A stretch of 64,000 bases of DNA from Monosiga brevicollis MX1 (lineage: Eukaryota > Opisthokonta > Choanoflagellata > Craspedida > Salpingoecidae), in the NCBI RefSeq assembly GCF_000002865.3, contig NW_001865058.1, positions 391,483-455,482 of the forward strand, written 5' to 3'. Position 1 is the stretch's first letter; each line of letters starts with the position of its first letter. The translations under genes and the position numbers were made by a program. This document shows positions 42,378 through 64,000 of the stretch, piece by piece. The notes under the pieces were generated by a model, which was not told the DNA's origin, did not search any database, and was given only the letters and a program-made list of their open reading frames with translations.

Positions 42378-42413
<36 letters not shown>

Positions 42414-42484: not shown

Positions 42485-43939
42485 ATGATGATGGCGATCG
42501 GAGGCAGCCGGTCATGGCTGGTGGTGGGTCTTGTGGCCTGTCTGGTGGGGGGTCAGGGGGTAGCAGTGGCTTATCCTCGAGATGATGGGCGCTTGCTGAA
42601 CCAGGTTCCCATGATCTTCACACACGACAGTGCAACCGGTGTGTAAACGATCGCCCGCTCTTAAGTGTCAGGAAAAGACTCACGAGATCTCCATGACGGC
42701 TGACAGGCTACCTCCTGCACGACAACCTTGTGACGCAGTGGGCTCGGACCCAAAACGTTACGTTGCCTGGTCAGGTTAGTGCGTCCCTCGCCGACCTTTT
42801 CTTTTCTTTTCTTTTTTAAGCGTCATTCTCCACCCTCTTCGTGCTTCGCGTGACTATGCGATCGCGCCCTCCAGGATTATCCGATGACAGACTCATGCTG
42901 TTTCAAAACACGCTAGCTGGACTGTGGTGCTCGTGGGTTTGACTTCCGGCCCATGGTCCGAGAGGATGGCCAGCTGGTGCTGCACCACGGTGATGTGATT
43001 GTCCATGTTGAGGTGAGAAGGGTCTGCACACCCCCGCTTCAGTGAGCACTGTGAGCTTGCTTGAGCTCTCTCTAGCCTCTCGAGCAGTGTACCCGGGCAC
43101 GCTCTCTGCTCACTCTGGATGGCCACGACGCGTCATATGGGCCGATCTCAGGTTGAAGTGGCCCTACAGGAAATCATCAATTGGAGTCGAACGCATCCAG
43201 ATGATTTGGTGGTTGTCTACATCTCCCATTGCGACGGAACCAACTGCACACAGATGGCGCAATCCGCTGTGGAAGCCGCCAGCCTCTATGCAATCCAGGA
43301 TTGTAGTGTTCTCCGCAACCTCACCTATGCCAACGCTGCCCGGGCTGCCAATGCCAGCACTTCGGGTGCCCCTGTTCTTGCCCTCTTTGGTACTTGATTG
43401 CAATCCACGCCTCTCCCCATGGGCCAGCCCTGATCTTCGCTGCACCTGGAAGAAATAGCTCAGCAAGTCCCTCCCCTCATGTTTGTGTTAGACTGCATGG
43501 ATGAGCTGTACGATCCATCTGTCGAGTGCTACATGCGTGAATCTGAGTTGCACGAGGCCGTTTGTTATGATCCGGCTACGGAGTCCTTGCCCGTTAATCA
43601 TTTCCTGTCCTACCTGTCAAGTGGGTACCCTCTTGCAGCCGTGTTCCAAATCCACTTCTCTCGCAATTGCTTTTCCGCCAAATCCTCCGCCCCCTCTCTG
43701 CCTAATGCACAGCACACCAACGACCAATTGCCTAGACACGACAGCCCCTGCGCGTCACGAAGACGACGGCCTCCTGTGGCTGACGCAGGCACACTGGCAG
43801 TACTCGACAGCCAGCGTCACGGCTGGTCAGTTATTCCAGCTCAATCTTCAATCTCTCTTTCGCTTGTTCAGTCGATGTTTCGATCTCGCGGCAATATGTG
43901 CAATGCACGTTCGTTTCATTTTTGACTCTCCATGATCTT

Positions 43940-43970
<31 letters not shown>

Positions 43971-44291
43971 GTTTTCTTTTTGTCTGCCGCTGTACAGGCA
44001 TGGCACACGAAAGTTCGATTCTTCTGGACGAGGAGAGGAGCCAAAACAACCAGCGAATCGCCAAACTTTTGCAGCAAGGCGCCTTCAAGCATCTGAGTGT
44101 GCTCGAGGTGGGTTTTTTTCGACAAGCACTGTCTGTCGGTGCCACTTGAACCCATCACGCCTTTGATGCTGACCACTGGCGCGACTCGTAACACCTGCCG
44201 CTGCGCTGCTCTGTCTGCTTGTTGAACGCAGCTAGACCATGTATGCGACCAAGGCAACGTCATATATAATCTGTTGGCCCAACGAGCCTAG
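42485..44291 (+). CDS. PI-PLC X-domain phosphodiesterase-like protein, secreted
   Basis: Eight exons (42485-42638, 42707-42774, 42917-43012, 43152-43389, 43492-43624, 43713-43825, 43998-44107, 44232-44291) keep phase and give 323 residues. The signal peptide is SWLVVGLVACLVGGQGVAVA. Family marks are IFTHDSATGYL, with the first catalytic-type His, then LDCGARGFDFRP and LVLHHGDVIV with the second His pair, then WSRTHPDDLVVVYIS. This is the arrangement of the short X-domain-only phosphodiesterases (PLCXD/bacterial-type), without the Y, PH or C2 domains of animal PLCs. The C-terminal third (CMDELYDPSVECYM; NCLDTTAPARHEDDGLLWLT) is Cys-containing and less conserved. A secreted or luminal lipid phosphodiesterase is expected; the substrate is unknown. 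The acceptor at 43151 was selected by phase. Confidence 0.82.
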
Positions 44292-44478
44292 CTGCAGCAG
44301 AGGTTCGCGATCAGCAGCGCCATGTTTCTTGTTTTTTTTTTTTTTTTTTCGTATCCACTCACACTCAAAGTTTTCCTCAATTGCAAATCTTGGGCAGGCT
44401 AGGTTTACTTCAAGGCATCCCGACTCAGGCCAATCGTTGAGTATGGAATTCAAAAACTCAAATCTTAATTGACATTTT

Positions 44479-47292
44479 TCATTCTTGATCTGTGGAGGCC
44501 TGGGGCTGGCGATCGACCAAGTGGCCCGGTGCAGTGGACGCGCTCTCCGACGCCCACGAGGCAGGTGTGACCTGACGAAATGTAAAATTCAACTGCGTGG
44601 GCATACCCGCGTGGGCCACACTCGACCATTCGGGGGTAAATGCAAAAACAGGCTGAATAGCGTGGCTTGGAGCACCAGCAACACGTGCTTCCTGCTGCAG
44701 AACCTGGGCACGACCCGTGACCTTGCAGTCGATGCCGCCAAATGCATACGGATTGCCACTTGCGTTGCCTGCCTTGGGCAGATCGCATCGGGCTGAAATT
44801 TGGTTGCAAGGATCGCCTCGAGCCAAGGGATCATTCTCGTAGTCATTGGCATTCAGCAGTGCACTCATGCTATTCAATGAGGTCACCTGATAGAGAAACA
44901 AGAGCCAGGGAAACGGGGATGCGAAAAACAACAATCAAGCTTTTCATCAGAGTCAAACATGCATGCGTACGAGGCGGAGAGGTCACACAAGTATGTTGCC
45001 TGACCGTATGCTGATCGCGTCGGAAGATGCGAGCCCGCGTGTCGTTTTCATAGCTGTAGCCTTGTGCCGCATAGCCAGAAATCTCAAAAATGACGGGCGA
45101 ACGGGGAATGTTGTATGAAGCGATGTACCCCTCTTGGTTAATGACAGCACTCAGATCCGACCTGGCCGCATGGTCAGAGCACAGGGCAGCATGAGGCGGT
45201 GTAGTGAAGAGAATCAATGCCTGACATGGGTTTAAGCTCGACGATTTCCCCAGCATGTTTGCCAAGACAAGGTGGGCCAGGCAGAGTGGAACACGAGTCC
45301 ATACGTTTCAATAACGGCCACCATTTGCTCCAGCATACTCACGGCGTGAGCTGGCAGATCCGTGCCCGGCTACAAGGCACCAACACATTCATGAACAATT
45401 GAAACAGAGAAACGATATCCCTATTGCCAGCAGGCGGGACTGACCGTAAATAGATTGTAGTTGGACACGATCCATTGGTTGTTGTGCGTGCCGCTGTTCT
45501 CTCGAGCAAAGAACTGTTGCACAAGGCGGTCAGAGCGGGTGATTGGACGGTAGAGCACACGCATGCTAGTGGATGTGCGCGCATCAACACAGGCCCAGCT
45601 CACCTCCATCCATGTATCACTGCTTGTGGCCAGACGATTGGCAATCTGGGGAAGGCCGCCAAACGTGCTGCTGGTCAGGGATAACTGTGTTATGTTGTGT
45701 TGTGTTGTGTTTTCTTTTCATTTTTTTTTTTTTCATTTTTCTTCTGCTATAGCTCGGACACGAGTGTAAAGCCAACTGACCTGACTGCGCATCCAGCAAG
45801 GGACCGAGTTGGGCTGAAGTGTGTTGTATAGACTCTTGTTGAAGACTGTCAGGGAGGTTTCAATCACCGTGAGGTTGGCGCTGGTCTGGAAATAGTCATC
45901 CTTGCTGTGCAAATCGCCTGGACGTGAACTGAAGGACACCACGTTGCCCGGAACACCCGGAACAATGTAATGCTATATCACGAGCATGATCATGGCCGAG
46001 GTCCAGCCGCGGAAGAGTCACGGACATAAATGGAGTGGAGACAAGGTGCAGAAGACGGGCAAGCAGCGGCATCGCGTCAACGTATGAGCTCATGTACAGA
46101 TGCGCCATGACTGCAGGCCAACAGTAACGAAGCAAAGGCCGAGTTGAAACCAAAAAGGTCGGTTGTACCTTGTAGATGCGCAACATGCACCAGTACGCGT
46201 TGAAAGTAGTGTGGCCCGTGAAAAGGTCGTCGCGACTTATCGTAAGTTTCACCAAACCAGAGCAATGCATGTGTTCGTAATCCGGGAACTCGTTGTGGAG
46301 AGGCTAGAGACGCAACAAGCAAGGTGGCGCGGGACAGCACGATCATATTTTTTTGTGAACAAGGTGACCATCGGCATGCCAGGGCGCACCGAGGGCTGGG
46401 TGTCGTGGGTGGACGGACCGCCACATAATCGACGAGTGCTGAAGCCAAGTCCTCCAGGTCCCCGGCCAAAGTCAGAATCAAAATCTATGTCAAGCCGGAA
46501 GGCATCCGCATATTCAACATCAAGTTGAGACAAACTAGCTCACTTCAGGGAAGCCTTGGCCAGTGATGCTTCGCACTTGATCTGGTTGCAACTGCTGCTG
46601 CTGTGGAGCAGTCAGCATGTATCCATCTTGCACACCCCGAGCCTGCGCAAGCAGATGCCCTGCTTGTCGCCAGAAGGGATCGGCCGGATTGCGGCTCCAC
46701 TGCGAGTGACGCGAGAGCGGGTACGGTGCACGTGAGTCAACGCTTTCGCGTCAGCAGCGAGATGAGGCCTGAATTCTGATCAGCATTGGTTTAGTGACCT
46801 GGTCTGAAATGTACTTCAGCTGAGCATCGACAAAAGCCTGCAGCTTCGAGGGGAGGTGGCCCTTGTCCAGGTAGCCGTTGGAGGCTTCAAAGTTGAGAAA
46901 GGCGTCGTAGATCAGGGGTTGACTTAAGGCACCCTCAAGCAGACCCATGGCATAGGCAGCCTCAGACGAGTTGCAAACTCCAGTCAGGGCTTCTACCGTG
47001 AGATCTGCCCAGCCCGTTTCATTGACGCCCGGAAAGTAGCTGGCCCGAGCACAGTCTTGGGGCGAGGCGGAGCTGCTCAGGATTGGGTCTATCACAGGGG
47101 CAGGGCGCGCGAGTGAGGCGTGTCGGTGCAGAGGTAAAAAAAGTGGTCCTCAGCAATCACTCCTCGCGCACCTCCTGTTTCTGAAAAGCTGGCATAGAGC
47201 AGCTGGGTCGTTGGCATTTGGTGCGCTGCTAGCCTCCCCGCCAGCGCCAACAGCGCCAGCAACGCCAGTGTGAGTGCTCTTGCTGAAGGCAT
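44479..47292 (-). CDS. PLBD: Phospholipase B-like protein (PLBD/lamina ancestor family)
   Basis: Lysosomal or secreted Ntn-hydrolase fold protein. The start Met (47290-47292) opens a signal peptide (LTLALLALLALAGRLAAH). Conserved blocks in order: GWADLTVEALTG with MGLLEGALSQPLIY (about 46900-47020), HCSGLVKLTISRDDLFTGHT then FNAYWCMLRIYK (about 46160-46265), SSRPGDLHSKDDYFQ with VIETSLTVFNKSLY (about 45820-45930), GTHNNQWIVSNYNLF (about 45450-45500), GYIASYNIPRSP and RARIFRRDQHTV (about 45010-45140), and finally DPCNQISARCDLP with a Gly/Pro-rich end. HCSGLVK carries the Cys that serves as the autocatalytic nucleophile in PLBD2-type proteins. It lies tail to tail with the PLC-like gene, 187 bases apart. 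Confidence 0.9.
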
Positions 47293-47834
47293 TTTGTAGC
47301 AGCTATACAAACAAGCCGGACCCCCAGCATGTAAGATCAGGCCAGCAGGACAGTGGCAACACCAAATCCAGGACCAGAAGCCATAAAATCAGTGCTAGGA
47401 CCAGGTCCAAGGCCAGGAACCAGGGATTCCGGGAACCAGGGAACCAGGGAACCAGGGAACCAGGGATCTAGGCACCAGGGTCTAGAAAATAGGAACCAGG
47501 AAACAGGGACCAGGTTACCAGGAACCAGAGTCTAGAAAATAGGAAACAGGAACCAGGGAGCAGGGCACCAGGGCACCAGGAACCAGGGAGCAGGGAGCAG
47601 GGAGCAGGGCACCAGGGAGCTGGGCATTAGGGCACCAGAGCATCAGCGGATCGATCAACTTGCCACTTTTTTGCTGACAAAAATGTCAGCAGAAGAAGCT
47701 GTGCCGTATGAAGCAAGTATTTTACTTTACCCGTTCCCAGTTAGAAGTTACATCATCCAAACAGTCGAAAGGTCAAAGGGTCAAGTCGAGCACGATTTGC
47801 AGGTCAGTCAGTGGCAGCGCCGGGGACGGGGACG

Positions 47835-47870
<36 letters not shown>

Positions 47871-48046
47871 CCTCTGTGTGTGCGCGCGCGCGTGTGTGTG
47901 TGTGCGTGGTTTGGGGGCAAGAGGGCAGGGAGGTGAGAAAAAGGGATCGGGCTGTGACAGGATGTGGGGTGAAGGGCCGGGTCGGAAACTCGTGTCTTCA
48001 CATCGGATGTTGTTGCCTGGGGTCGGATGTAGGAAGACTCGGAAAG
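47293..48046. repeat. Divergent spacer with degenerate CCAGGGAA minisatellite
   Basis: A tandem array of short AACCAGGG/AGCAGGG/CACCAGGG units fills about 47380-47640. Short TCTCTG and GT runs follow at about 47835-47910. Promoters of PLBD and the acylpeptide hydrolase gene should be here. No gene is seen. Confidence 0.65.
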
Positions 48047-51000
48047 ATGGGGGAGGAAGGCTCCGACTCAACCAGGGTGGACCAGGCCATGGACCTGTAT
48101 GCCAAGGCAGCTACTTGGCCTGTCGTGACCGAGGGCACTGTCCGCTGCCGCGAAAGGTAGGCTGGTCGCAATGTGTGGAGCGGTACAAGCACCGCTCTGG
48201 GCCTCTGCCGACCATTTCAATCCTCACTTACTTCCTGCACATGGTGGGCTGATAGCGTGTGGCGCGTAGAGCTTGCTGTTCGACAGCGTCACTTGGCAAC
48301 ACACACCAAACTCGAGAGCACCACTACTGTGGCGCTCAACGCCGCCAATCTTGCTCAGGTAATCTTTCCTCGTCTTGGCAGTGTGGGTGTCTCAGCAGGT
48401 CTCTGTTCAAACGGTATGTTGATGTCACGTCATCCTTTTGCAGCTCTATACCTCGTCGACTCCAAAAGCCAACAACATTACGAGCAGCCATGCCGCCGAC
48501 GATGGTGCCGACCCCGAGACATTATCCAGCGCCCGTATCGACCACGTGGAAATAGAGGCGGCCGGCGACAAGCGTCGCTTCCTTCGCTACTACTCGAGCC
48601 CAGATAACTTGGCCCACAGCCTCGAAGTCACCCACCTTCTCGACGTCAGTGTCACGCCCCACAGCGTACCTCGCGCCAGTTGATTCTCTCGCCCGTCCTG
48701 CTTCCACGTACCAGCATGGCTCAAGTAACCATGGCTCAGGTCTGCCATCTCATGAGCAACGTGGCAAATGTGGCCCCATAGTACGTCTACGGAGAGGACG
48801 TTGAATTTGCTGGACACGCTTGGTCCCCAGACGCCCTTCACTATGCTTTTGTGGCCGAACAAAAGCAGCCGCGTCAGGATCACTGGTGCGTGTGCCCCTC
48901 CCTTCTACCCTCTCTTTGTTATGCGCGCGCCATTCTTTTCTGCTGGCTGAGTTGCTCGACCTCTTTCCCTTCGGCGGCGTTGTGTCCTGATAAACATCTG
49001 CCTGTACATGTAGGTGCAAGGACCGCGAGCACCCCCAACCCAAACCGACCTCTCAAGCAGAACAAGCCGCGCACAGCACCTTCCTGGCTCGAGAGAACTG
49101 GGGAGAGGGGCGAGCAAAGGTGATGGCGCCAGTGCTCTTTCTATTCGATTGTGTGACTGGCCGCCTAAGCACTGCCACTCTACCTGCGGGCGTGCTGCCC
49201 GGCCAACCCCTTTTCCTCAACTCGACACAACTAGCCATGGTGGCCTGGTCCAATACTGCGCCCCGCCCACCCGGCATTCTCTACTGCGCCAACCGAGAAA
49301 GCCGGTGCGTTCCAAGCTCTCCAGGCGTTCGGCACCGAGGGTGTGCTTTTTGGGGGTTTTGGTATGATTCGGCGCAAAGCATCAATCTGGAGGCAAGGGC
49401 TCACTGGAATGGCCCCAAAACTTCTCTGCTCTTTGCTGCAGTTTGCTTGTGTACCAGCTTGACGAGCAAACCTCGAAATTCGTGACGCCCGTGGGTGAAC
49501 ACGTCCGCTCGCCACGAGTAAGTGCCCCGCCGCCAGAGTTTACATCCACGTGCGTATAAACTCCCGTGGAATACGGTAAGGCGCCACACACGTCTCATGG
49601 CTGTCATGAATGTACGACGTCGTTTGTGAACGCTCTTAGCGCGCCCCTGACGGCAAAGCCCTCTGTTGGCTTCAAAACGAGGCTTTGGGCACTCACGGCA
49701 AAGCCAGCAACCTGGTGGTCTGCACAGATCTGGATGCTTTGCAATACAACGTGGTGTTTACATCCCCAGGCAGGTTCAGGCTTTGGCTGCTTGGAGACCA
49801 TCATAAGGGGGCGCCATCTCAACCTGCATGGGGCGACTTTGTAGAGCACGGCGAGACCCCAGGCCTTTACCTCTTACAGCTGCCCAAGATGTGCTGGCAT
49901 GCCGTCAACGTCCGTTAGCTTGCCCCTACCTTGTACATCTTGATGAGTCGATATCGATTTGCTTCTGTTCTCGCCACTTGGAGCAGGGCAGCGTGTCACT
50001 CTTCTGGCCCCAACCCCTATCCATGGCACGCAGGACAAATGGGCCGTTTGCTGTGATACCCTGCTGCACACCCATCGAGTGGCCGTGCAAATTGACTTGA
50101 CCTCTGGTGAACTCACGGTTCTACATGGTAGGTTGAACCAGTGTGCACTTGCTGGGTTTTGTTTGATTCATTGCAATCGTTTCTTGCAAGGGAAAGGAGG
50201 GGCGGAAGAGAGACTTTGGAGCTCCGCCAGCACTCACCCCGATGGGTTTGTTGGGGCTTAGCAACGGCTGGAGATGTTAAGCTTTTGGCCTCGACCCAAG
50301 GCCGTTTGCTCCTCCTGGAACAGTCGCCCGCCTCACCCGGCCGCGTGATTCTGCTGGATGACCAGCACGAGCATCCCGTACCCGTCTGGGGTAATCAGGA
50401 CCACAAAATGGATGGTATGTGATTGAATCGTTGGAGAATCTTTGGAGCATCACTGTACTCACGAGCTGCATTCGTACATCACCCACCATGTGTGGTAGTG
50501 GAGTGGTCCTCCCATGTGCATCAAGTGGGCGCGGGCGCCACAGTGCCCTACATTTTGATGAAGCCAGGAACGCTTGCGCCACGTGAACTCATCTTGTTAC
50601 CTCACGGCGGGTATGTGTCCATTCAGCAATAGCAAGCGACGAATGGGGGGGAGAGGGGGGGAGCGGGGGAGAGAGAGAAAGGTTCTTTTCTTGTTTTGGA
50701 GGGTTTCCCCAAGACTTTGCTTTGTTCTTGGTTTGTAGCATCGTTGCCGTGATTTGTTTATTTATTTATTTTGCTCCTTTTTAGGCCCCACTCGGCAGTG
50801 AGCTGTGGCTTTACCCCACTCTTGAGTGCGCTCGTTGCTGTGGGCTATGGCATCTTGCTGCCCAACTATCGTGGCTCGCTTGGGAATGGCACTGCAGCCG
50901 TGGCTTCGCTCGTGGGCAAAATTGGCCAACAGGTGTGGTTCACTGTGGCGATGGGACGCAACAGGCCCACACCAAGTGCAGGGTAAACCACCTGAGAGGG

Positions 51001-51835
51001 CTTGCATTCTTTCACCTTGTCTTGCATGCCGCTTACTGCGCAGGACGTGGCCGATACCATGGCCTGCTTGGATGAGGTGCAGGCTGCCGAAGCTTGGGCA
51101 GCATCGCTGCCGGTGCACGTCTTTGGAGGCTCGCATGGTGGATTTTTGACAGCGCACCTCAGTGGGCGATTCCCGCAACGCTTTCAAAGCGCAACTTTGC
51201 GCAATCCTGTCATTGACGTGGCCTCAATGATTTGTGCGACGGATATCCCCGATTGGTGCTTGGTGGAGTGCGGTATTCCCGAATCCACTCTTGTGTGCAA
51301 CATGACGACAGCGCAGTGGGAGATGCTCCGCCAAGCCTCGCCCTTGCAGTATGCAGGAGCTGTACGTTTACATGCCAGTGTTTGAGACTCAAAGCCACTC
51401 GGGCTGGTTATCCTTTCGCCTTTTCAAATGGGCAAATGATTTCTTCTTCTTTTTTTTAAAGAGAAAAGACAACTGACATGTGTGCGTTCGCTCCCATTGC
51501 TGGTGTGAACCATCACCACAGGTGGCTTGCCCGTCCCTGGTCTTGCTGGGCGCAAATGATCTGCGTGTCCCTCCATTTCAGGTATGTGCAGCCGACGATT
51601 GGGCAATTTACTCAAGCGCCATGCCAGGCTCACAATGCATTTGGTTTTTCATGTGAATGTACCCATCCCCGTGCGACCATGCCCATAGGGCCGTATTTGG
51701 CATGACACCTTGCGCCGTTGTGGACGGGCCTCGACCTTGCACATTTACCCGGACGACAGCCATCCCTTGAGCTCCAGCGCCTGCGAGAGCGACGTCTTCC
51801 GTACCCTCATCCACTTTTGGTCCATGCTAGAGTAA
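48047..51835 (+). CDS. APEH: Acylaminoacyl-peptidase (acylpeptide hydrolase)
   Basis: Prolyl-oligopeptidase-family serine peptidase that removes N-acylated residues from peptides in the cytosol. The gene has many exons. The N-terminal part forms a beta-propeller, with pieces such as YVYGEDVEFAGHAWSPDALH (about 48780), NLVVCTDLDALQ (about 49710), LLASTQGRLLLLEQSP (about 50285) and VPYILMKPG (about 50545). The alpha/beta-hydrolase part is LPHGGPHSAVSCGFTPLLS, YGILLPNYRGSLGNG, DVADTMACLDEV, then the nucleophile Ser in FGGSHGGFLTAHL (about 51135). RNPVIDVASM, TDIPDWCLVE, Asp in GANDLRVPPFQ (about 51555) and His in YPDDSHPLSS (about 51761) complete the triad. The sequence around the nucleophile follows animal APEH closely. 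The stop is TAA 51833-51835. The start Met at 48047 is the first ATG of the frame that contains VDQAMDLYAKAATWPVV. Confidence 0.9.
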
Positions 51836-51977
51836 CCCCCAAACCATCAGCTACTCCACCTCAAGCCACCTCCGCGACCCCCTTACCTCATGATCCAATG
51901 GAAGAAGAACAAGAAGCTTTCGGATTTTGAGTGTGTGCAGCGTTTTGTGCCAATTTAGGCTTGATCCCTTCAAATGT

Positions 51978-52042
<65 letters not shown>

Positions 52043-52316
52043 GGGGCGGGGCTCTGTTTTATTTTATTTTCTTATTTTCTTGTGCGTGTGGGGGGGATCC
52101 GGATGTATTTTTGTTCAGCGCTGGTCTGCTGTGGTCTGCTGTGGTTTGATGGGGGTTGGTGCCTTGACACACAGGGCCACGGGTGCCGACCGTGGTAGTT
52201 GGCTGCGCGTGTATTGAGCGGGAGGGTTTGTTTGTTTGTCTCCGCTTGTCTGTGCATCCGTTGACGGTGATTGATTGCGGGGCTGCTGTCGGGACGGATC
52301 TGCCCATCTGCCCATC
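51836..52316. repeat. Spacer with (CA)n
   Basis: A (CA)n run at about 51979-52040. No gene seen; this includes the promoter region of the small basic protein. Confidence 0.6.
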
Positions 52317-52730
52317 ATGTCGTTTGCTCCCCGATCCAAAAAGGCCAGCGCGAGTGCCGTCCAATCGGCACCCATGGACTTTAAAACGGCTGGCTATGAA
52401 GCCGATGATCAAACTGCCGGTGCTTACTCTTCCATGCCCGCGCCCACGTTTGGGGCCAAGGGCGGGCCACAGAAGAAGAAGATGGCCAAGAAGGCTCCCC
52501 CCAAGAAGGAGCCCGCTCAGAAGAAGGCGCCTTCCAAAGCCAAAATGTTTTCAAAGTCAGCCGCCAGCTTTGCATCTGATGACGAAGGTGATGATGATTT
52601 CAACCTGTCGGGCTTGAGCGCCAAGAGCAAAACCAAAACCAAAACGGCGCAGTCTGCGACCAAAACGCAATCCGCCTATGATCGGTTCGTGACAGCCACA
52701 TTGAGGCAGCGAGAAAGCGACGCCAGCTAG
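52317..52730 (+). CDS. Small lysine-rich protein of unknown function
   Basis: An intronless frame of 137 residues. It begins MSFAPRSKKASASAVQS, has a Gly/Ala/Pro stretch and then a lysine block (QKKKMAKKAPPKKEP) that could act as a nuclear localisation signal or contact nucleic acid. An acidic SDDEGDDDFNLSG patch and a Lys/Thr/Gln tail follow. It has no folded domain I recognise and is probably disordered. Composition alone argues for real coding: Lys and Ala codons ending in G or C match neighbouring genes. Function unknown. Confidence 0.6.
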   Translation: MSFAPRSKKASASAVQSAPMDFKTAGYEADDQTAGAYSSMPAPTFGAKGGPQKKKMAKKAPPKKEPAQKKAPSKAKMFSKSAASFASDDEGDDDFNLSGLSAKSKTKTKTAQSATKTQSAYDRFVTATLRQRESDAS

Positions 52731-52810
52731 CCGCCATGATCTGCCGTGTGCGCCTGCTCCCCATCTCTTGAGCATTGGTCAACCTGAACACCTCTCTTGC
52801 TCATGATTGA

Positions 52811-55800
52811 ATGGTCTGGTCCATGATGCTCGGGCATGGCTTCGACTGGCTCGCCTGTAGCCTCTTCAAGTTTGTTCTCGTGGGCAGCAGTGAATCGGGC
52901 AAAACCAGCCTTCTCAATCGCTTCGCAGGCGGCACAGGCGACAACATCTCCACGATCGGCATTGATTTTGTACGAAGCCCAGCCCCGCCTTACTCATGGC
53001 CTTACCTGATGGCCAGTGACCAGCGATCTGGGTCGGTGTCAGCCTCTACTTTGGAACATCTCACGACCAGTTGCTTCTTGGCGTGTTTCTTGATGATTTG
53101 CAATCCTGCTAGAAAGTGAAGCAACTGCAAGTAGACGGATCCACCGTCAAACTTCAAGTGGTCGGTCCCTGTATGCTTTTTGGTGTTTGCCAGCGGTTCT
53201 CTTGTTCGCCGGCTTGAAGCTGACCGCTGACCTCGCCCTCACTTTACTCGGCAGTGGGATACCGCTGGCTCTGAGCGTTTCAGGCATGATAAATCTTGCA
53301 ATGGCCCGCCCTCCTTCTTGCTCACGTATCCAGATAGCCATCTACCACCTGCATGTTGCTGATCTTGTGTTCCCCTTGTGCGCTCATAAAATGCCCTGAC
53401 AGGTCCATCACCACCAGCTATTATCGTGGTGCACACGCTGTCTTGATTTGTTTTAGCGTGACAAAGCGCGTAGGTTGTCGTCATTGGCCGTGCGTGGCAT
53501 GTCAATCGTCTCTGGCCCCCGCTCTGGCCCCCGCTCACCCCTCTTCCTGCACATCCCACATTCAGGCCACTTTTGACTCGGTGCAAAGCTGGATTGATGA
53601 GATTGAACGCAACGTTGGTGAGGATGTACAGTGGTGTCTTGTCGGCACGCAGGCAGATGAATCTGGCAGCCGCACTGTTTCGGCACAAGAAGCCTCTTCG
53701 CTGGCCCAACAAAAAGGCATGGACTACTTTGAAGTCTCAGCCAAAACCGCTCAAAACGTTGAGCTCCCCTTTGAGACTATGGCACGGCGCTTAATTGCTG
53801 CGTACGAGCTCCGCCCCACGCTCCCTCACTCCCTTCCTTTGAAGCTCTCAGCTCCATCAAGCGCCTGTGCTGACCGCATGCATCTCATTTCAATGCTGAC
53901 TCTCATCAACACCTATTATCCCGTCATTGCGTCACGCGCAGCTCCAATGGCTCGCCACCCTTGCCACCACAGAGCAAGACCATGGCCACACTGACTCGTG
54001 AGGAGATGCTCATCGCGGCTCTTAATAAAGCCCAGGGTAACACCACTAAGAACCGCAGCGTCGTGTGCGTGCTAGTGGGTCCTGGTGCTGCGGGCAAGAC
54101 TACAACCGCACGTTCCCTACAAAACATTGAGTTTTCTGAGGTTCGTGCCGATCGCGCGTAAGACTGTGCTCCAAAAAAAGCGCAGTCGAATTTGATCACA
54201 CAACACTCATGTGCATGTACTCAGGAGCGTGTTTCCACGCGAGGTGGCGATCGCATGGACTTGCTGTGTCAGCTAGACCAAGACCACGTGATAGTAGACA
54301 AGAATGCTTTCGTCAAGGTACATCCTCGCTGAAAAAAAGGCCGGGGGAGAGGATGGAGGGGTTCATCGGGTGCGGGAGGAGCGGGGGCTGCATTGCGGGA
54401 AAAAGGCATAGATCATTGCTTTTGAGTTTTTCTGATCAATCTTTGCATAAGTGCAATCCCCATCGTCTGCAGGCACACTGACCAGCTGTTACCCATTTTG
54501 CGGCTTTCTTTCTAGGTCGGGGGCGTTAATCACACGTCGCGCGGCCTTAAGGTGGAAGATCACGCTGGAGATGGTCAAGACTTTAATGCCGGGCGAGAAG
54601 GCTATGAGTTCCAGTCCATGGTTGAAGCAGAAGCACGTTTGCAGCTGGACTTGCCTGAGGTCGACGATGATGAGGATAATCTGATTGAACTCGACAGTGA
54701 TGTCACGACTGAGGCTAAAGGTCGTGGGCGTAATCGTCGCCGCAACAAGAAGGTCAAGGACAAGAGCAAAGAAGTTGACAAGAACGGTACCTCAAGTCCT
54801 CGACGTCGCTTTTCTGCCACCCAGCCTCAGGTGGCTGAAAAGGCGCAAATGACTCGTGCACAGCAACAAGTTATCTTGGCGTCAATGGATGAGTAAGTCA
54901 CTCATAGCTTTCTTTGTTCTCGACCATACACGTACACCTGGGTAAAAATGTCACGTCTCACTCGTAATTCGATTTGCCTAGTTCACAGGCTGAAGGCACA
55001 CACGTCAACTTCTTTGACATGGGTGGTCAACTCGAGTTCAAGTCTCTTGTTGAGGGTTTTTTGCGCTCAGGCAACGTTATCTGCATCTTCTTCACCATGA
55101 CGGAGCTTCTGGCCAATCTGCAGAATGCTCAGAGTCTTCATCCAGACGACAACTACACGGGTCTTGAGCATTTCATGTCCTGGTGCAATTCAGTTGTCTC
55201 GACTTCGAGCTACGGGCCGGTATTTCTCGTTGGCACCTACGCTGATGCCGTACCCGACCAAGCTGACCGCCAAACCATTTCAGATGGCATCCGCCGAGAG
55301 TTGGCGCAGCGTTATCACGAGATTCGTGATCGCATTGTGGCGCCGAGTTCGAACGAACCCGGTGCCAGCGCCCTCTACTACTTTCCCGTCGACAACACCC
55401 GCTCAGGCGAGGATGCAGGTGTACAACAACTGCGTGCTCAGCTGCAAGATGCACTCAACTCAAGCCGGATTGCCAACATGGAGGTGCCATTGGAACTTCG
55501 CATGTGGCAGGATCTTATCAATACCCTAGCTTACCCAGTAAAGGAGGAGGCGGTCATGAGTGCTGCGTGCCATGCCATACGGCAGCGTCATGGTCGCCCT
55601 CTTGAGGGTTTGGGATCCATCACCCTGCGCGACCTGGCTGAGTTGTACGATGAGACCTTCCAGACTAGCCAACGTACCTCTACCACCGACGCTGACTTTC
55701 GCAAGGTATGTGGCACACCGGCCCTTTGAGCACCCGCTTCACATAGAGGAACATGATGAATGCCGTTTCATGTATAAAAGCGGGACACTTCGCTTTTCGT

Positions 55801-58800
55801 GTCGACTCAATTTGGCCGGGAACCGCGTGCGCTTTGGTCTGTAGTGGGTTGATGCAATCCATGCGCTAGGTACCATCACACATTTCAACTCGGCGCACCT
55901 TGAAAATGTGGTTGTCCTCAACCCCATTGAGCCGCTCAGCTATATGACGCTTCTGGTGCGGGATTTTCGTCTCCATCGCTTGGCGCTGGATAACGAGGTC
56001 GAATTTAGCGACGACTTCAAGTTGTTGCGAGATGAGGGTGTGCTCGTTCCTGAGCTGGTGCGCCATTTTTTGGGGCGTGCTTCTGAGGCGGATACGCGAC
56101 TGCGCAATCTTGACGAGCAGCAACAGCAACAGATTCTGGCACTCATGATGCAGGTCTGCCTATTCCTCAATGTTTTTGAAATAACTTTTTTGTAATTTTG
56201 AGCTTCTTCTTTTTTTTTTTTTTTAATGTGGCTTCAACGCATGATTGCTCATTCTTCTAACCCCTTTTTTTTTCGACTAGTTCAAAGTAGCAGTACCCAT
56301 CACATACGGAACGGGCGCTGCTTATCTGCTCCCGGGTCTATTACCACAACGGCAACCCACGCTGGTCGACCAAAATATTCGACCAACCGAGGTATGTGCT
56401 GTGTATCCTTTTGAAATTTTCGCGCCAAGCCTCTTCTTGTGCTTTCTTAACTGCTCTTTGATGGCCTGCCACGGCTATTTTGATAGCTTTATATCGCACC
56501 GTACATGGGAGAAACTCTATCCCGTTTTGCTGCTGTGACGCATGATCAGCTTGGCGCACGGACCAATCTGCCGGCCGGCTTTTACGATAAAGTAAGCACC
56601 CAGTGCACCCTTTCGTTAAAAAAATCGATACTGCTGCCCGTTGGTCATTTGTGCGGTCACAAGGAGATAAGTTTGCACGCTCACCAACGGATCGTGGCTG
56701 TGCATCTGTGGTCTAGCTCGTGGCTGAAATGACAAGCCGAGCAGAGGGCAGCGCATCCACCACGCGGCGCCCTTTGTTGTCCAAGAGTTTGTCGCGTGTA
56801 CATTTCGGACAACATGCCGTTGATCTCGAGGCCAATCGCCAGCTGGGCTGCGTGATTGTGCGCTTTTATGCCAAAAATGCCGTCGGGCTGATTCACCAGG
56901 TGCAAATTCGCTTTATCGCATTGCATTTGACTCGTCTCATTTGCCATTCTGCCAACAAGCCTCACAACTTCACCATTGGCTGTCTTATTAGATCAACGAG
57001 ATGATTGCAGATGTGTTGAAGGGCTCTTTTTTTTCTTTGAAATACGACATCTTGATTGGTGCCAACGATGACATCCTGCTGCCGGTGCGTGCTAAAATGG
57101 CCGTGCGTTAGCCAATTTGTGCCTGCGTCTGTTCCACGCACGTGCGCTAATGAGCTTTGTTCTTTGCCGCAGATCAGCGTTGTACGCGATTTTTATTACC
57201 GCAAAGAGCAAACCTTGAATTTAGACTCGTGCTCATTGTCGCGAGCTGATGTTCTTGACAAGATGGGGAGCATTTTGCCCATTCAACTCCAAGCTGAATA
57301 CTATCACGTCTTCATCTCTTACAGGTCTGAAGCACCATTTTCACGATGCATCAGCTTGATGATTCTTACGTTGCTCGTGGCATCACTGTATCAACTTGCA
57401 TCAACTTAGGCACGAGCCAGACTCAACCAAAGGCGCTGCCACCTTTGCAAATGAGCTGAGTCTACACACGATTGGTCAAACAGGCGATCACATCAGCAGC
57501 TTTTTGGACGTGGTGAATTTGGAGCATGGCAAGCGTTTCGACATCAGCTTCCTCAAGGCGCTCGCAAAAAGGTGTGTTCTCCACCTGCGTACACAATAAT
57601 GCATCACATTCTCACTTATACAAGCCTACACAGTCTAAACCTGTATGCAAATGCTGGCCGTTACGTGCCATATACAGCTTGGTCTATGTTCCACTCGTGT
57701 CGGCCAAAGCCTTGGAGCGCATGGAGGGCGAAGTAGGCTTGGCTCAGGTGGATCATTTCATGCTTGAGCTTATGGTTGCGGTTACGTTGGAACGTGCACG
57801 TGGCTTTCCTCGCATCTTGCCCATCTTTAGCGGCGAGGTTGGTCAAGCTTTGAGTTCCAAACTTTTTTTTTTTTTTTTTTTGTCTCTCTCTTCCGCTGTC
57901 AGAGCCGCTGATGCTGCTGTGAAGCATTGTCATGATTCATGATTGAACCTGATTGCCCTTGTTTGAGACAGATCGGCGAAGATGACGAAGGATTTCCGCG
58001 CATGGAGAGTTTCTTTTCCAAATACGACTTTGAGCATCGACTGCCAGACCACATCAATGAGCACACGGTAGCAGCGGCACGTGAGTTTCTTGAGCAGCAC
58101 ATGGGCATTCCGCTCGGGAAGCCGCTCACTGTGCGTGGCCTGCTGAACGAGATCAAACTCTACAACTCGCCATTTCTGCTATGGAACTACATGCAACGGG
58201 ATGCCACAACCCCGGATGGACATGGCGGTCAAGGCTTGCGCACCCTAGCCCAGACATACCTGAATCTGACCCATGCCTTTAGCCATGCAGCTCGAGAGTC
58301 GCTTCATCATCTGGAGAGCGCCTTCGAGGAGTATGTTCAGGACAAAAACCAGTTGGCGCCCCGCGACCCCTTGCCAGCCTCAACCTCGACTCTCCCTGTT
58401 GGACGCTCTGCCAGCACAAAGCCGACGCCCACGGCAACGTCGCGAGCCGCCGCCCCGACGCAAAGTCCCAAAGATTGGGATATTGATCAAACCTGCGCTT
58501 GGCTCCGCACCACTCCCATTCGCACGTTCGAGGATACCTTCAAGCAGAACCAGGTGGATGGCGTGCTTCTCCTACAACTTGTGGACGCAGACCTGCAAGA
58601 GATGGTGAGTTCCGGCTTCTGCACTGTATCGGGGGATAGCCTCGCTGTGGTGATTGCACTGGCTGCTAACATTGAACCCGTTTTGCTTCCAACCCATCCA
58701 GGGACTCAAGCCCTTGCATATCAGACATTTCTTTGCTGCCCGAGAACAACTCACGGGCTTACCAGCGCCAGCAACCAAGAAGCGCTCTGCCGCTAAAGTG

Positions 58801-58815
58801 TGCATTGTCATGTAG
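52811..58815 (+). CDS. Rab-like / Roc-COR GTPase with TIR, SAM and CaaX box (possible fusion)
   Basis: Nineteen exons (52811-52969, 53113-53160, 53255-53283, 53403-53469, 53566-53801, 53942-54140, 54225-54317, 54516-54892, 54982-55705, 55845-56153, 56281-56391, 56487-56591, 56717-56899, 56992-57084, 57173-57324, 57410-57571, 57678-57837, 57972-58604, 58702-58815) give 1317 residues with every junction in phase. Rab-like domain 18-179: GSSESGKTS, WDTAGSERF, SYYRGAHAVLICF, GTQAD, SAK. Roc domain from about 220: GPGAAGKTT (226-234), a long basic insert, FFDMGGQ (Switch II), VGTYAD (488-491). COR about 530-930 (GTITHFNS, VVVLNPIEPLSY, YLLPGLLP, GCVIVRFY). TIR about 953-1068 (YYHVFISYR, FLDVVNLEHGKRFD, VYVPLVSAKALERM, VDHFMLELMVA). 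SAM about 1237-1300 (WDIDQTCAWL, MGLKPLHIRHFF). End KKRSAAKVCIVM, a polybasic CaaX box. If the Rab is a separate gene, the Roco protein would start at Met 53982. Confidence 0.8.
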
Positions 58816-58837
58816 TGTGATTTTCTGACAATTTTTA

Positions 58838-58843
58838 AATAAA
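58838..58843 (+). promoter_or_regulatory. Candidate polyadenylation signal AATAAA
   Basis: AATAAA lies 23 bases after the TAG of the Roc-COR-TIR-SAM gene, a usual position for a cleavage and polyadenylation signal. It supports 58815 as the real gene end. Confidence 0.6.
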
Positions 58844-59320
58844 ATATATCACCCACAAGCCAATTTATGTTTTGCGATGTATATAAACAAAAATGCAGCC
58901 AACATATAGCATACTTACCTGCAGGTGCAGTTCGGTGGATCACGTAGCACTGACTGTCTCTCTGAGAGTTGCTTCATTGCACGCGGAAGTTCAGCTTGAC
59001 GGGAGTGCCGGGGCCTCGTGTCCCGCGCGACCTGGTCATTTTTGGTTTGTGGACTGCGTTCGCGCAGTCCATGCTTTTCTATGAAATCTAACTGAAGCAC
59101 TAGTGATGATTGGTTAATATGATGATGACAATGCACAATCAAAGTACCTGAACTTTGTGCCTGTGTCACTACTCCCATCACATCTGTCCTTTTGAGCATT
59201 CGCTTTCCTAGGCTTGATGTATGATAATAACACAGTGGGATACCCCCTAATTTTGAAACAGAAAGTAAACCGAATTACAATTTTCCCCGAGCAAGGGCAT
59301 CAGGACGTCAAACCAGTTTT
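58844..59320. other. Spacer, nothing seen
   Basis: AT-richer sequence between the last recognised gene and the repeat-rich end of the window. A short inverted pair flanks GTTCGCG (ACTGCG...CGCAGT, about 59051-59071). No gene. Confidence 0.4.
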
Positions 59321-60797
59321 GGGTTGCGAGGAGCAGTAGGTTTGAGAAAGCGTTTTGAGAGACGAGACGGGGCGGAGCGGAAGCTTTTGCTGTTGTCTTG
59401 AGGTCAATGGAACCAGCTGCGGTCGACAAGCATTCACAGTGACCAGACCAGGTGCACCGTCAGAATAGCCGTAGAGTCACTCAATCCCGAGGATAGGGAA
59501 AGTGCAACTCGAACCCGACCGCAGGTGTCACAGCAAGGAGAAACAACAGTAGTCACAAGCGTATCGCCCAAAGGCAGCTGCTCGGGGATTGCGAGGCCCG
59601 CGATACACGCGGTGTTTACTCATGTGACCCCATAAGAGGGGTCAAGCCCAATGGGTTTATGTTAGCGTCAAATCCGTGCTTCCACGCATTTACGTGTTGG
59701 AGCCTGACAGTTTAAGTGTAGGTGTGTATGTGAGTCGGGGAGTGAGGTCGTAGCAGAATACTCATTGTGAACGGCACTGAGTGTGTGCGAAAGCAATGGG
59801 TGTTCTCAAATGTGTGGGAGCACGGATTTGACGCTAACAAGAGGTGTCTGTTGGGACAGCAAACTTTTACTGGGACCGGGCCAGGTGCACCGTTAGAATA
59901 GCTGAAGAGTCACCCAATCCGACGGATAGGGTGAGTGCAACCTATGCCCAAATGCAGGTGCCACGACAAATAAGAGATGACAGGAGACACAAGCTTATTG
60001 CACAGGGCAGCTTGCAAAGGCATTGCAGAGTACACGAGGCATCTGATGATGACAGGCGAGTGGTTTCGTGTGCCTCTCACGTGAGAGGGCTTGGGGTCAA
60101 TAAGTTGCAGGTGTGTGTTTGTTGGTCAGTGAGTAGAGTCGTACGACCTATGGGAATTTGTTAGCGTCAAATCCGTGCTTCCACGCATTTGAACACTCCC
60201 ACTGCTTTCGCAAACACTCAGCATCGGTCGCTATGGGTCTTCCTATTGGTATTCCATAGCTGCGACGACCTCACACATTGACACCTACACTTGGACCCCC
60301 TGGGCCTGATCCTCCTCGTGGGAGTCACATGAGTAAACACCGCGTGTGACGCGGTCCCCACGATGCCTGCGCAGCTGCCCTGGGGCAATAAGCTTGTGAC
60401 TACTGTTGTTTCCCTTTGTTGTGGCACCTGCGGTCGGGCACGAGTTGCACTTTCCCTATCCTCGGGATTGAGCGACTCTACAGCTATTCTAACGGTGCAC
60501 CTGGTCTGGTCACTGTGAATGCTTGCCGACCGCAGGTACGTCAAGCCCCCTGCCATTCTGTCTTCCCCTTGCTCTCCTGTGTGCTCTGCTCTCTTGTGAA
60601 CTTTCCCTATCCTCGGGATTGAGCGACTCTACAGCTATTCTAACGGTGCACCTGGTCTGGTCACTGTGAATGCTTGCCGACCGCAGCTGGTTCAATTGAC
60701 CTCAAGACACCACCAAAGCTTTCGCTCCGTCCCGACGGACGTCTCTCAAACCTCTCTCAAAACGCTTCCTCAAACCTACGCGCTTCCTCGCAACCCA
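59321..60797. repeat. Fold-back repeat element with nested copies
   Basis: The segment 59321-59640 recurs inverted at about 60320-60797, for example GGGTTGCGAGG against CCTCGCAACCC and GGTGTTTACTCATGTGAC against its complement. A diverged third copy in the left orientation lies at about 59860-60080. A 31-base motif starting GTTAGCGTCAAATCCGTGC occurs at 59661 (+), 59808-59838 (-) and 60160 (+). The right arm carries an extra exact 86-base duplication. No transposase or other coding domain is seen inside, so it looks like a non-autonomous fold-back or MITE-like element. Confidence 0.75.
60450..60686. repeat. Exact 86-bp direct duplication, 151-bp period
   Basis: Copies at 60450-60535 and 60601-60686 are identical, starting CTTTCCCTATCCTCGGG and ending GCTTGCCGACCGCAG. 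The first is followed by GTACGT, so the stretch 60536-60686 has the outward form of a GT-AG intron. Confidence 0.85.
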
Positions 60798-60839
60798 AAG
60801 ACGGCCTCCAGACGTGCTCGAGCCTGGCATCAATCTATT

Positions 60840-61080
60840 CTACGACTTGGGCCTGCTCTGAACGAGGCCGGTCTGCTCAGGCTGGGGCTGGACTGCTCAT
60901 CTGCTCAGGAAGAATCTGCTCGGGCCGGATATGAACAAAGCTGGTCTGGTCAGCCCGAATTTGCTTGAGCTCGCACTGAACGAGGTGTCTGACCAACCCA
61001 GGTCTGCTCGGTCCGGATCTGAACAAGGCTGGTCTGCTCAAACTGGATCTGAACAAGGTTGTTGTGCTCAAGCCAGCTCG
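60840..61080. repeat. Degenerate CTGGTCTGCTC / CTGAACAAGG repeats
   Basis: Loose tandem units built from GGTCTGCTC, GGATCTGAACAAGG and variants, leading up to a short open frame. Confidence 0.6.
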
Positions 61081-61091
61081 TCCCTGTGGCG

Positions 61092-61298
61092 ATGACGACA
61101 ACTGGTGGGATTGCCTCCTCCTTCGTGGATCTGCTTGGTCAGCTCGCCCGCTGCGCCGAGGCCCGTGGTGTGTACCAGCCGGGGCTGGATGAGGCCTTTG
61201 TTCCTCGGTGGAAGGGTCGCTTTGCGGCGCTGGTCCATCAGATGAACGCTGACCACATCCAGCGTCGCTTTGGCGGTGTCTGCCTGCGCTCGTCGTAG
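61092..61298 (+). CDS. Short hypothetical open frame (68 residues)
   Basis: ATG at 61092 to TAG at 61298. The peptide includes FVDLLGQLARCAEARGVYQ and ends HIQRRFGGVCLRSS. Its composition is protein-like and the frame starts just after the degenerate repeats, but no domain is recognised and no exon partners were found. It may be a gene remnant carried in repeat sequence, or chance. Confidence 0.2.
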   Translation: MTTTGGIASSFVDLLGQLARCAEARGVYQPGLDEAFVPRWKGRFAALVHQMNADHIQRRFGGVCLRSS

Positions 61299-61658
61299 GT
61301 AGGCACCGCCTCGGGGGTCCCTCTGTGGGGATCCCTGTGTGCACCTGTCGCTCCCAGGGTGGTTCCTCGTTGTGTCTTTTGATGGCTTGACTTGTATTTT
61401 TGTTTAAATTTTGCTTTAATTTTTGCTGTATTTTGTGGTATTTTTGCTGAATTTTTGTAAGGTCCTTTGTATGATGTCTTTGTCTACTGTGGCCGGTTGT
61501 TTTCCTCAATCCGACGTTGTGTCTCGTTGGATGTGAGCGTGCCGTGGTGATCATTGTGTTTGTGCTGTGATGGCTTATACTTGTGATGTGTGACTGCCTT
61601 TTTTGGTGTCTTGTGTTTAAAATGGCCGTATTTCTGGTTATACTTGGTCGTTTTGTAC

Positions 61659-62740
61659 GATTCTTCTATGTGCGTGATTCTTCGCGCTTGTACTTCTTGG
61701 CATGATAGGAGCCGATGAAATTGTCTTGTTCACTTGTGTTGTTCTGCGTGCCGTCGTGATTTTGATCTCGGTTTGTACGATCTTTTTTTCTATGTGCGTA
61801 ATTCTTCGCGCTTGTACTTTTTGGCATGATAAAAGCCGATAAATGTAGCTTGTTCTCTTGTGTTGTTTTGCGTGCCGTTGTGATGTTGATGTCGGGGTTG
61901 CACAGCTTTGCTTTCAGCTCTGAGGTTCAAATACCTAATTTATTATTAGTTGGTACAGCAAGATGTTACACAACAAGGTGGGACAACATCAAGTACCAGA
62001 GGACACACAACGTGGTAAAGTATACCGTCTCAGATTGTGCCTCTAATACTGCCGGCCAGGGGTGGTGCTCCGTGCACTTTTGGGTATGAACATGGTGTCT
62101 ACTCGTGCGTCGGGTGCACTAGTTCGCAAAGCATTGGGTGTTTTATATTAAAGGTGTATGTCCAGTACAGTGTAACGTGTGTGGACAAGGCGATTGTCAC
62201 AGAGGTATCCAACCAATCGAAGTGCATACGAGAACATGGATTGAAGCAAGGCGAAGGAACAAGACAGAACAAGACAGAAGGAGGGAAGTGGAACGACCGA
62301 GGTCAAGAAGGAAAATGGTACCGATCCAGGGAGATCGCTCCCATTTATAGCAGGTGGAAACACACACACACAGTGGAGACAGAGAATGGACTATCACACT
62401 GAAGACAGGTGGAAGCGATATCAGCAATCTGTTGGGACCAACAGATGCCTCAACAAGATGGTACAACCAGATGTTACACAACAAGGTGGGACAACATCAA
62501 GTACCAGAGGACACACAACGTGGTAAAGTATACCGTCTCAGATTGTGCCTCTAATATTTTACCCTTTCACGCGATAAATAAATTAGGTGTTTGAACCTCA
62601 GAGCTGAAAGCAAAGCTGTGCAACCCCGACATCAAAATCACGACGGCACGCAAAATAACACAAGAGAACAAGGTACATTCATTGGCTTCTATCATGCCAA
62701 GAGGTACAAGCGCGAAGAATCACGCACATAGAAACAAACG
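61659..62740. repeat. Second inverted-repeat element with internal 98-bp direct repeats
   Basis: Arms at about 61788-61946 and 62577-62735 are inverted copies (CTTCGCGCTTGTACTT...TCAGCTCTGAGGTTCAAA against its complement). The left arm is partly duplicated in tandem at about 61659-61787. Just inside the arms, 61951-62048 and 62459-62556 are near-identical direct copies (TGTTACACAACAAGGTGGGA to TGCCTCTAATA) around a 410-base centre. No coding domain is seen. Confidence 0.75.
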
Positions 62741-62862
62741 CGATCTGGAGTACTCAGCGCCTGCGTGCATTGTCTGAATATCCAGACAAGCGCTCGTGGG
62801 TCTCTGTTTTGTTTTCCAAGCTTCCTGGTGGTCGCAAACGTTCTTGGGTAGCTATTGCCAAG

Positions 62863-64000
62863 ACCTGGACCCTGCTCGACAAGGCCAGGCTTGTGCAGCC
62901 CACTGCGGGCCAGGGGTGGTGGGGATCAGACCCTGCACGACAAGGCCAGGCTTGTGCAGCCCACTGCGGGCCAGGGGTGGTGGGGATCAGACCCTGCACG
63001 ACAAGGCCTGTCCTGATCAGAGCACTGCGGGCCAGGGGTGGTGGGGATCAGACCCTGCTCGACAAGTCAGGCTTGTGCAGAGCACTGCAGACCAGTGGCA
63101 GTGGGGATCAGACCCTGCACGACAAGACCTGTCCTGATCAGAGCACTGCGGGCCAGGGGTGGTGGGGATCAGACCCTGCACGACAAGGCCAGGCTTGTGC
63201 AGCCCACTGCGGGCCAGGGGCGGTGGGGATCAGACCCTGCACGACAAGGCCAGGCTTGTGCAGAGCACTGCAGACCAGTGGCAGTGGGGATCAGACCCTG
63301 CACGACAAGGCCAGGCTTGTGCAGAACACTGCGGGCCAGGGGTGGTGGGGATCAGACCCTGCTCGACAAGGCCAGGCTTGTGCAGCCCACTGCGGGCCAG
63401 GGGTGGTGGGGATCAGATCCTGCTCGACAAGGCCAGGCTTGTGCAGAACACTGCGGGCCAGGGGTGGTGGGGATCAGACCCTGCTCGACAAGGCCAGGCT
63501 TGTGCAGCCCACTGCAGACAAGTGGCAGTGGGGATCAGACCCTGCTCGACAAGGCCAGGCTTGTGCAGCCCACTGCGGGCCAGGGGTGGTGGAGATCAGA
63601 TCCTGCTCGACAAGGCCAGGCTTGTGCAGCCCACTGCGGGCCAGGGGCGGTGGGGATCAGACCCTGCACGACAAGGCCAGGCTTGTGCAGCCCACTGCGG
63701 GCCAGGGGCGGTGTGGATCAGACCCTGCTCGACAAGGCCAGGCTTGTGCAGCCCACTGCGGGCCAGGGGCGGTGTGGATCAGACCCTGCACGACAAGACC
63801 TGTCCTGATCAGAGCACTGCGGGCCAGGGGTGGTGAGGATCAGACCCTGCACGACAAGGCCAGGCTTGTGCAGCCCACTGCGGGCCAGGGGCGGTGTGGA
63901 TCAGACCCTGCACGACAAGGCCAGGCTTGTGCAGAGCACTGCAAAACCAGTGGCAGTGGGGATCAGATCCTGCTCGACAAGGCCAGGCTTGTGCAGCCCA
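62863..64000. repeat. 61-bp minisatellite, continues beyond the window
   Basis: About 18.6 head-to-tail copies of a 61-base unit (CTGCACGACAAGGCCAGGCT, then TGTGCAGCCCACTGCGGG, then CCAGGGGTGGTGGGGATCAG). There are recurring variants: CTGCTCGAC, CCTGTCCTGATCAGAGCAC, GCAGACCAGTGGCAGTG and GGCGGTG. Because 61 is not divisible by three and the unit lacks stops in all three plus-strand frames, long repetitive open frames arise without being genes. Confidence 0.93.

Follow-up and report, generated by a model that had tools for sequence, protein, structure and literature searches.

A window of 64,000 nucleotides from the choanoflagellate Monosiga brevicollis MX1 (contig NW_001865058.1, positions 391,483 to 455,482) contains on its forward strand, at 52811-58815, a locus that very probably encodes a Rab-like GTPase and a Roco chain in a single gene. 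The Rab, Roc, COR, TIR and SAM modules follow one another in this order and the protein ends in a CaaX box; the window here means the whole stretch that was analysed, and positions are counted from its first letter. The single-protein reading is supported because a diverged paralog in the same genome keeps the Rab-Roc join together with the position and the phase of the intron that interrupts it. On balance, our analysis favours a membrane-anchored Roco protein with a built-in Rab and a Roc-COR switch, in which the TIR domain, aided by SAM, would cleave NAD+ or signal.

Gene structure and the Rab-Roc junction

Rebuilt from the sequence, the chain of 19 exons comprises 3954 nucleotides, which is 1317 codons and a stop, and has no internal stop codon. 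The introns are 84-198 nucleotides long, and 17 of the 18 have GT-AG borders, the remaining one (53284) being GC-AG. An earlier note on this DNA had described 19 exons in phase with one GC-AG intron, and joining the exons reproduced this chain without an internal stop. Its account of the border between the modules, in which the last Rab exon ends GC/GT at 53801 and the acceptor at 53941 restores an alanine codon, was likewise borne out (GC+C encodes Ala). A Pfam search of the joined protein, one of the checks proposed in that note, finds Ras/Rab (residues 20-177, E 1.2e-56), COR-A (E 1.3e-4), TIR_2 (E 1.1e-3) and SAM_2 (residues 1238-1296, E 2.7e-8), of which COR-A and TIR_2 fall below their curated cut-offs.

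The genome (39.5 Mb in 57 contigs) was searched for paralogs of this gene. With the window protein as tblastn query at least 53 matches were obtained, 40 of them in three loci that include the window's own, and the 13 remaining ones cover query residues 17-182, the Rab part only; 35 of the 63 candidates were scored, so that the true counts may be higher. When the protein of one of the other loci, C52, served as query (36 of 36 candidates scored), the identical three loci were returned, with three additional SAM-only matches. The closer paralog, at the C46 locus (L029, minus strand), has 20 exons and encodes 1352 residues that are 73% identical to the window protein, with the same Rab, Roc, COR, TIR and SAM domains and the C terminus CLIM. 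After the first one, its introns match all 18 window introns in order and phase (0,0,2,0,2,0,0,2,0,0,0,0,0,0,2,2,0,0). Exon lengths are equal in 13 of the 18 exons that follow the first window exon, including the exon of 236 nucleotides that precedes the junction in both genes. The two copies are well diverged: synonymous divergence (dS) is at least 1.5 or saturated in all 12 segments compared, and nonsynonymous divergence (dN) is 0.05-0.5 in 10 of the 12. The dN values are 0.046 for TIR, 0.083 for COR (where dS is saturated), 0.08 for the Roc G1 segment, 0.40 for Rab and 0.42 for SAM.

The second paralog, at C52 (L030), is a Roc-COR-TIR-SAM gene that is 45% identical over the aligned part and, as modelled, has neither Rab nor CaaX. 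Long open reading frames (ORFs) lie upstream of its Roc (L030:526-3018), perhaps representing another module in the place of the Rab, and their membership of the same gene is putative. Searched in five pieces, the N-terminal region of C52 gave no Pfam match above cut-off.

The intron at the Rab-Roc junction is in phase 2 and at the same position in the window and in C46, is 140 nucleotides long in the former and 138 in the latter, and is 41% identical between them (other introns 28-50%); the flanking exons are 58% and 68% identical. Scored with a splice-site matrix built from the other 17 introns of the window gene, the junction donor reaches 2.84 bits, a value equalled or exceeded by 77 of the 319 GTs in the gene, and the acceptor reaches 4.65 bits (35 of 318 AGs score at least as high). 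The two are the top-scoring GT and AG within 53760-54000. These splice sites are moderately strong and compatible with an intron, and are not decisive alone. Immediately past the linker, a pre-Roc block of 23 codons (residues 195-217) is 74% identical to C46.

Several observations weigh against a single gene. The donor is unremarkable by its score. The 14-codon linker (residues 181-194) is 21% identical to C46 with a dN of 0.93, so that the segment connecting the two parts bears no sign of coding constraint. Within the Roc codons, at 54024, there is an AATAAA. The C46 model was built on homology to the window, which partly guided the agreement of the introns, although the sizes of its exons, its frames and its splice dinucleotides still had to fit. 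Finding two copies with a Rab in the same genome would also fall short of demonstrating the fusion in a second species.

The unconstrained linker and the AATAAA at 54024 fit an arrangement of two neighbouring genes, a stand-alone Rab and a Roco-TIR-SAM gene starting from the Met at 53982, the pair having been copied together to C46. So do the reasonable context of the ATG at 53982 (AAGACCATGGC), the Rab-less C52 paralog and the compactness of the genome here, where a U1 spliceosomal RNA gene begins 95 nucleotides beyond the stop codon. We nevertheless regard two genes as very improbable. The stop codon of a Rab read through the junction (53992-53994) would overlap the first 13 nucleotides of the Roc coding sequence, and the unspliced Rab ORFs of the window and C46 have visibly dissimilar tails, ending in WPH and HFH, with no C-terminal prenylation cysteine in either. 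The C46 residue opposite window Met194 is a leucine, and the sole in-frame ATG of C46 past the last in-frame stop lies after the conserved pre-Roc stretch TLTREEKLIAALKDAQGK. With no in-frame ATG ahead of the pre-Roc block, a separate start for that block is not available in C46. The AATAAA at 54024 is missing from C46. Furthermore, the compared flanks (window 40001-52860 and 58816-64000 against 2.7 kb and 1.2 kb around C46) share no blastn or tblastx similarity, and thus Rab and Roc stayed adjacent, with the junction intron in identical position and phase, while their neighbourhood changed.

Two arguments were dropped in reaching the single-gene reading. The earlier note had held that 140 bases leave no space for a 3' end and a promoter; this is weak here because U1 starts just 95 nucleotides after the stop codon. 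Poly(A) signals were set aside as evidence against two genes, as neither AATAAA nor ATTAAA occurs in the 6.6 kb of C46 that were scanned, up to about 300 nucleotides beyond its stop codon.

Domain anatomy and predicted function

The Rab module carries GSSESGKTS, IGIDF, WDTAGSE, TQAD and VSAK, which we take to be G1, RabF1, G3, G4 and G5, respectively, as well as KLQVW and YYRGA. The best 60 of its 896 PDB matches are all Rab, Ypt or Sec4 proteins, with Rab1 first. Rabs normally carry WDTAGQE and NKxD, and the glutamine serves GTP hydrolysis. The usual glutamine is replaced by Ser75 in the window protein (53270-53272; WDTAGSE) and by alanine in C46 (WDTAGAE), and G4 reads TQAD and THVD, respectively, not NKxD. 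Because the GTP-hydrolysing glutamine is lost, the Rab module may be a slow, fixed or GTP-locked switch. It has no C-terminal prenylation cysteine of its own: it runs into Roc, and the read-through tail likewise has none. The chain itself ends in CIVM, C46 in KSKFCLIM and C52 in KQLE, without a cysteine (the latter two as modelled), and the CaaX box is probably farnesylated. Two paralogs have both Rab and CaaX and the third, as modelled, has neither, a pattern that among three genes is no more than suggestive of a CaaX box replacing the lost Rab tail.

Roc is recognized with the Rab part omitted (Pfam E 3.5e-8, above cut-off), and at 5e-11 when a charged low-complexity insert (residues ~291-400) is excised. 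It contains a G1 motif GPGAAGKTT at 54078, the G3 motif DMGGQ and the G4 motif TYAD; Roc aligns across the three paralogs, and the C52 Roc is above cut-off (2.3e-6). COR-A lies directly C-terminal of Roc with an E value of 4e-5, below the curated cut-off, as do the paralogs at 4.6e-5 and 0.0015. The COR region is 86% and 51% identical to the two paralogs. A PDB profile search of this region returned no Roco structure, and a search of the whole genome for COR-A gave no matches, these loci included, a null that is uninformative because the gene is split over exons.

Of all segments compared between the window and C46, the TIR domain is under the strongest constraint, with 92% amino acid identity, a dN of 0.046 and a dS of 1.68. 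TIR_2 matches the three paralogs at E values of 1.1e-3, 6.2e-3 and 0.05, all below cut-off, and other TIR-like scores are far under their cut-offs (NCBIfam 0.0043; PADLOC 0.011, for one of two TIRs); PHROGs gave no TIR match. In the genome there was no match to PF01582, and of the 11 matches to PF13676 at E 0.1 or less none falls within the loci of the three paralogs. When the PDB was searched with a profile built from the three TIRs, SARM1 came first with a weak E value of 0.05, and of the ten matches seven are SARM1, two a flax TIR and one unrelated. The glutamate of the SARM1 motif LEAGK is the catalytic residue. LEHGK of the window TIR aligns to LEAGK, and the putative catalytic Glu1000 (57522-57524) is identical in all three paralogs. 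One glutamate is reported to be needed (PMC6040629). A further TIR gene is found in the same genome (L031; contig C26, ~248036-248506), where an ORF with a long upstream part ends in what is the beginning of a TIR (HIMISYN).

C-terminal to TIR, a region conserved with C46 (74% amino acid identity over residues 1071-1195) has no Pfam match in the joined protein (residues 1070-1195). A single SAM is found after the TIR, and ARM repeats are absent from the Pfam listing of the joined protein; in C52 the match to SAM_2 is stronger still (E 6.9e-16). Bacterial, archaeal and viral relatives were sought with the three-paralog alignment in one scan each of genome_contigs and viral_contigs, and none of the 30 and 48 pattern matches was confirmed; as each scan used just two short peptide patterns, more distant relatives may have escaped it.

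The domain anatomy is read directly from the DNA, and the anchoring, switching and catalysis that we propose are predicted from it. The C-terminal CaaX box with its basic stretch would be farnesylated and would anchor the chain, substituting for the missing prenylated tail of the Rab, and the Rab module, probably slow or GTP-locked, would select a membrane or a partner. Roc-COR would act as a nucleotide-dependent dimerization switch, and SAM and TIR would oligomerize, enabling the TIR to cleave NAD+ or build a signaling assembly. A single chain would in effect contain the step by which a Rab recruits a Roco protein, a step that LRRK2 carries out in trans with Rab29, and a SARM1-like TIR would take the place of the kinase as output. 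The picture in the earlier note, of two GTPase modules that drive a TIR effector at a membrane, is a reasonable prediction from this anatomy. That the natural Rab-Roco fusion is a membrane-anchored TIR enzyme under dual GTPase control is a tentative proposal, to which we give somewhat less than an even chance.

Parts of this proposal are tempered by the sequence itself. In none of the three paralogs does COR-A or TIR_2 reach its curated cut-off, and the best structural match of the TIR, to SARM1, has an E value of just 0.05. Apart from the box, the 20-codon CaaX tail is unconstrained (25% identity to C46, dN 0.94), and NADase activity would not be readable from a glutamate. Many eukaryotic TIRs are scaffolds. 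The weak likeness to SARM1, together with Ser or Ala in the place of the usual Rab glutamine and TQAD or THVD in the place of NKxD, would also suit a real fused protein whose TIR, Rab or both are non-catalytic, that is, an adaptor with a scaffold TIR and a pseudo-switch Rab and no NADase. We consider such an adaptor unlikely, though a serious candidate: the putative catalytic glutamate is identical in the three paralogs, and TIR is the segment under the strongest constraint between the window and C46.

Coordinates, the start of the protein and the neighbourhood

Table 1. Features of the Rab-Roco locus in window coordinates
Feature	Position	Strand	Remarks
Proposed first exon (MSFAPRSKK...AYDR), basic/acidic low-complexity N terminus, tentative	52317..52684	+	ATG 52317; donor CG/gttcgtga
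Rab-like GTPase module	52861..53801	+	Exons 52861-52969, 53113-53160, 53255-53283, 53403-53469, 53566-53801
Junction intron between Rab and Roc coding parts, phase 2	53802..53941	+	Position and phase equal in C46
Linker, pre-Roc block (residues 195-217) and Roc GTPase	53942..55483	+	Three whole exons and first part of a fourth
COR region (COR-A, putative COR-B)	55484..57274	+	COR-A E 4e-5, below cut-off; paralog conservation
TIR domain, YHVFISYRHEP...NLEHGK	57275..57837	+	TIR_2 E 1.1e-3, below cut-off; SARM1 PDB profile match
Conserved region (residues 1070-1195), then low-complexity linker	57972..58475	+	74% amino acid identity to C46
SAM domain	58476..58749 (58476-58604 and 58702-58749)	+	SAM_2 E 2.7e-8
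CaaX box CIVM, after basic stretch KKRSAAKV	58801..58812; stop 58813-58815	+	Direct reading
AATAAA, likely 3' end signal	58838..58843	+	One further AATAAA or ATTAAA within 52301-59100, at 54024

The earlier note had proposed a single protein of 1317 residues starting at the ATG at 52811. The single chain stands, since the C46 paralog keeps the join with its intron position and phase, and the 1317 residues probably leave out part of the N terminus. In C46 as modelled, the Rab exon opens at an internal phase-2 acceptor and is joined to a separate exon, MSFMPAKN..., and the window has an equivalent acceptor, CTGTAG/C, at 52860. The upstream ORF of the window, MSFAPRSKK..., offers seven phase-2 GTs, the last of which (52684) gives a protein of 1423 residues without an internal stop. 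We therefore think it likely, as a tentative model, that a first exon lies upstream and that the protein has about 1423 residues. The start at 52811, with the upstream ORF as an unrelated small gene, is a doubtful alternative. That ORF (52317-52730) is indeed complete, and the proposed exon has no significant similarity to the first exon of C46 (697 of 1000 shuffles score as high); the 17 N-terminal residues encoded from 52811, however, are likewise unlike C46 (584 of 1000 shuffles as high), and the ATG directly follows an in-frame TGA.

The U1 spliceosomal RNA gene downstream of the locus is complete (58911-59073, plus strand; Rfam 92.7 bits). Farther on, long repeats, both inverted and direct, form two clusters (59386-60717 and 61661-62738) that are possibly non-autonomous mobile elements, their longest arms being 215 nucleotides at 89% and 162 nucleotides at 93% complementarity. 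A tandem array with a 61-bp unit occupies 62764-63977, where 16 overlapping 300-nucleotide copies lie in register at a spacing of 60-61 nucleotides. A bacterial promoter scan was set aside as not relevant to a eukaryote.

Known relatives and implications

The window protein shares with the Roco family (LRRK2, LRRK1, DAPK1, Dictyostelium Roco and bacterial Roco proteins) a Roc followed by a COR-like region in a multidomain chain with an effector. It differs in that no LRR or kinase was found, the effector is TIR with SAM, a whole Rab precedes Roc, the C terminus has a CaaX box and Roc carries a large charged insert. The nearest working parallel would be LRRK2 with Rab29. Rab29 is reported to recruit and activate LRRK2 (PMC10786121), and according to a review Rabs bind the N-terminal part of LRRK2 and Roc-COR dimerizes (PMC6337361). 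The likeness lies in a Rab that works at membranes together with the N-terminal part of a Roco protein. LRRK2 and Rab29, however, are two proteins acting in trans, whereas in the window the Rab is within the Roco chain, its usual glutamine is gone and no kinase was found.

SARM1 consists of ARM repeats, two SAMs and then TIR. The window protein resembles it in combining a TIR that has FISYR and LE.GK motifs with SAM in one protein, and SARM1 is the best PDB profile match. It does not have the layout of a SARM1 ortholog, with ARM and two SAMs before TIR: the one SAM detected follows TIR, no ARM was found and the sequence match is weak (E 0.05). In Rab44 and Rab45 the Rab is C-terminal, after EF-hands; common to them and the window protein is a Rab inside a larger protein, but here the Rab is N-terminal and is followed by a second GTPase. 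Both are named as multidomain Rabs in PMC3192815. The TIR-ROCO proteins of Aplysia, of TLR-, MyD88- and TIR-type, combine TIR and Roc-COR in one predicted protein, and the sections available of that report mention Mbt and EF-hand accessory domains in two TLR-type proteins but no Rab, SAM or CaaX (PMC9334734).

Choanoflagellate SARM1 homologs with the NADase glutamate, and SARM1-like TIRs, have been described (PMC6040629, PMC13142454). For Monosiga, two Roco proteins were reported in 2010 (PMC2927912) and organism-specific Rabs in 2011 (PMC3192815), and the genes described here may be among them. No Rab-Roco fusion and no Rab-Roco-TIR-SAM protein turned up in the full-text searches made of open-licence papers. 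Within those searches, the suggestion that the architecture is undescribed holds for the Rab-Roco combination and not for Roco with TIR, which is reported in Aplysia (PMC9334734).

If the gene is translated as modelled, the covalent Rab-Roco pair would be a natural test of Rab control over Roc-COR, which is central to LRRK2 and Parkinson's disease. It would also show that the direct link between a Rab and the N-terminal part of Roc-COR, as known for Rab29 and LRRK2, can be found within a single chain of a unicellular organism, where it would serve a TIR with a cell-death or immune output and not a kinase. Together the three paralogs offer a natural comparison: two have both Rab and CaaX and one, as modelled, has neither. 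The protein would further be a case of a SARM1-like TIR controlled by small GTPases in a lineage outside the animals, one that is studied for clues to how animal innate immunity arose.

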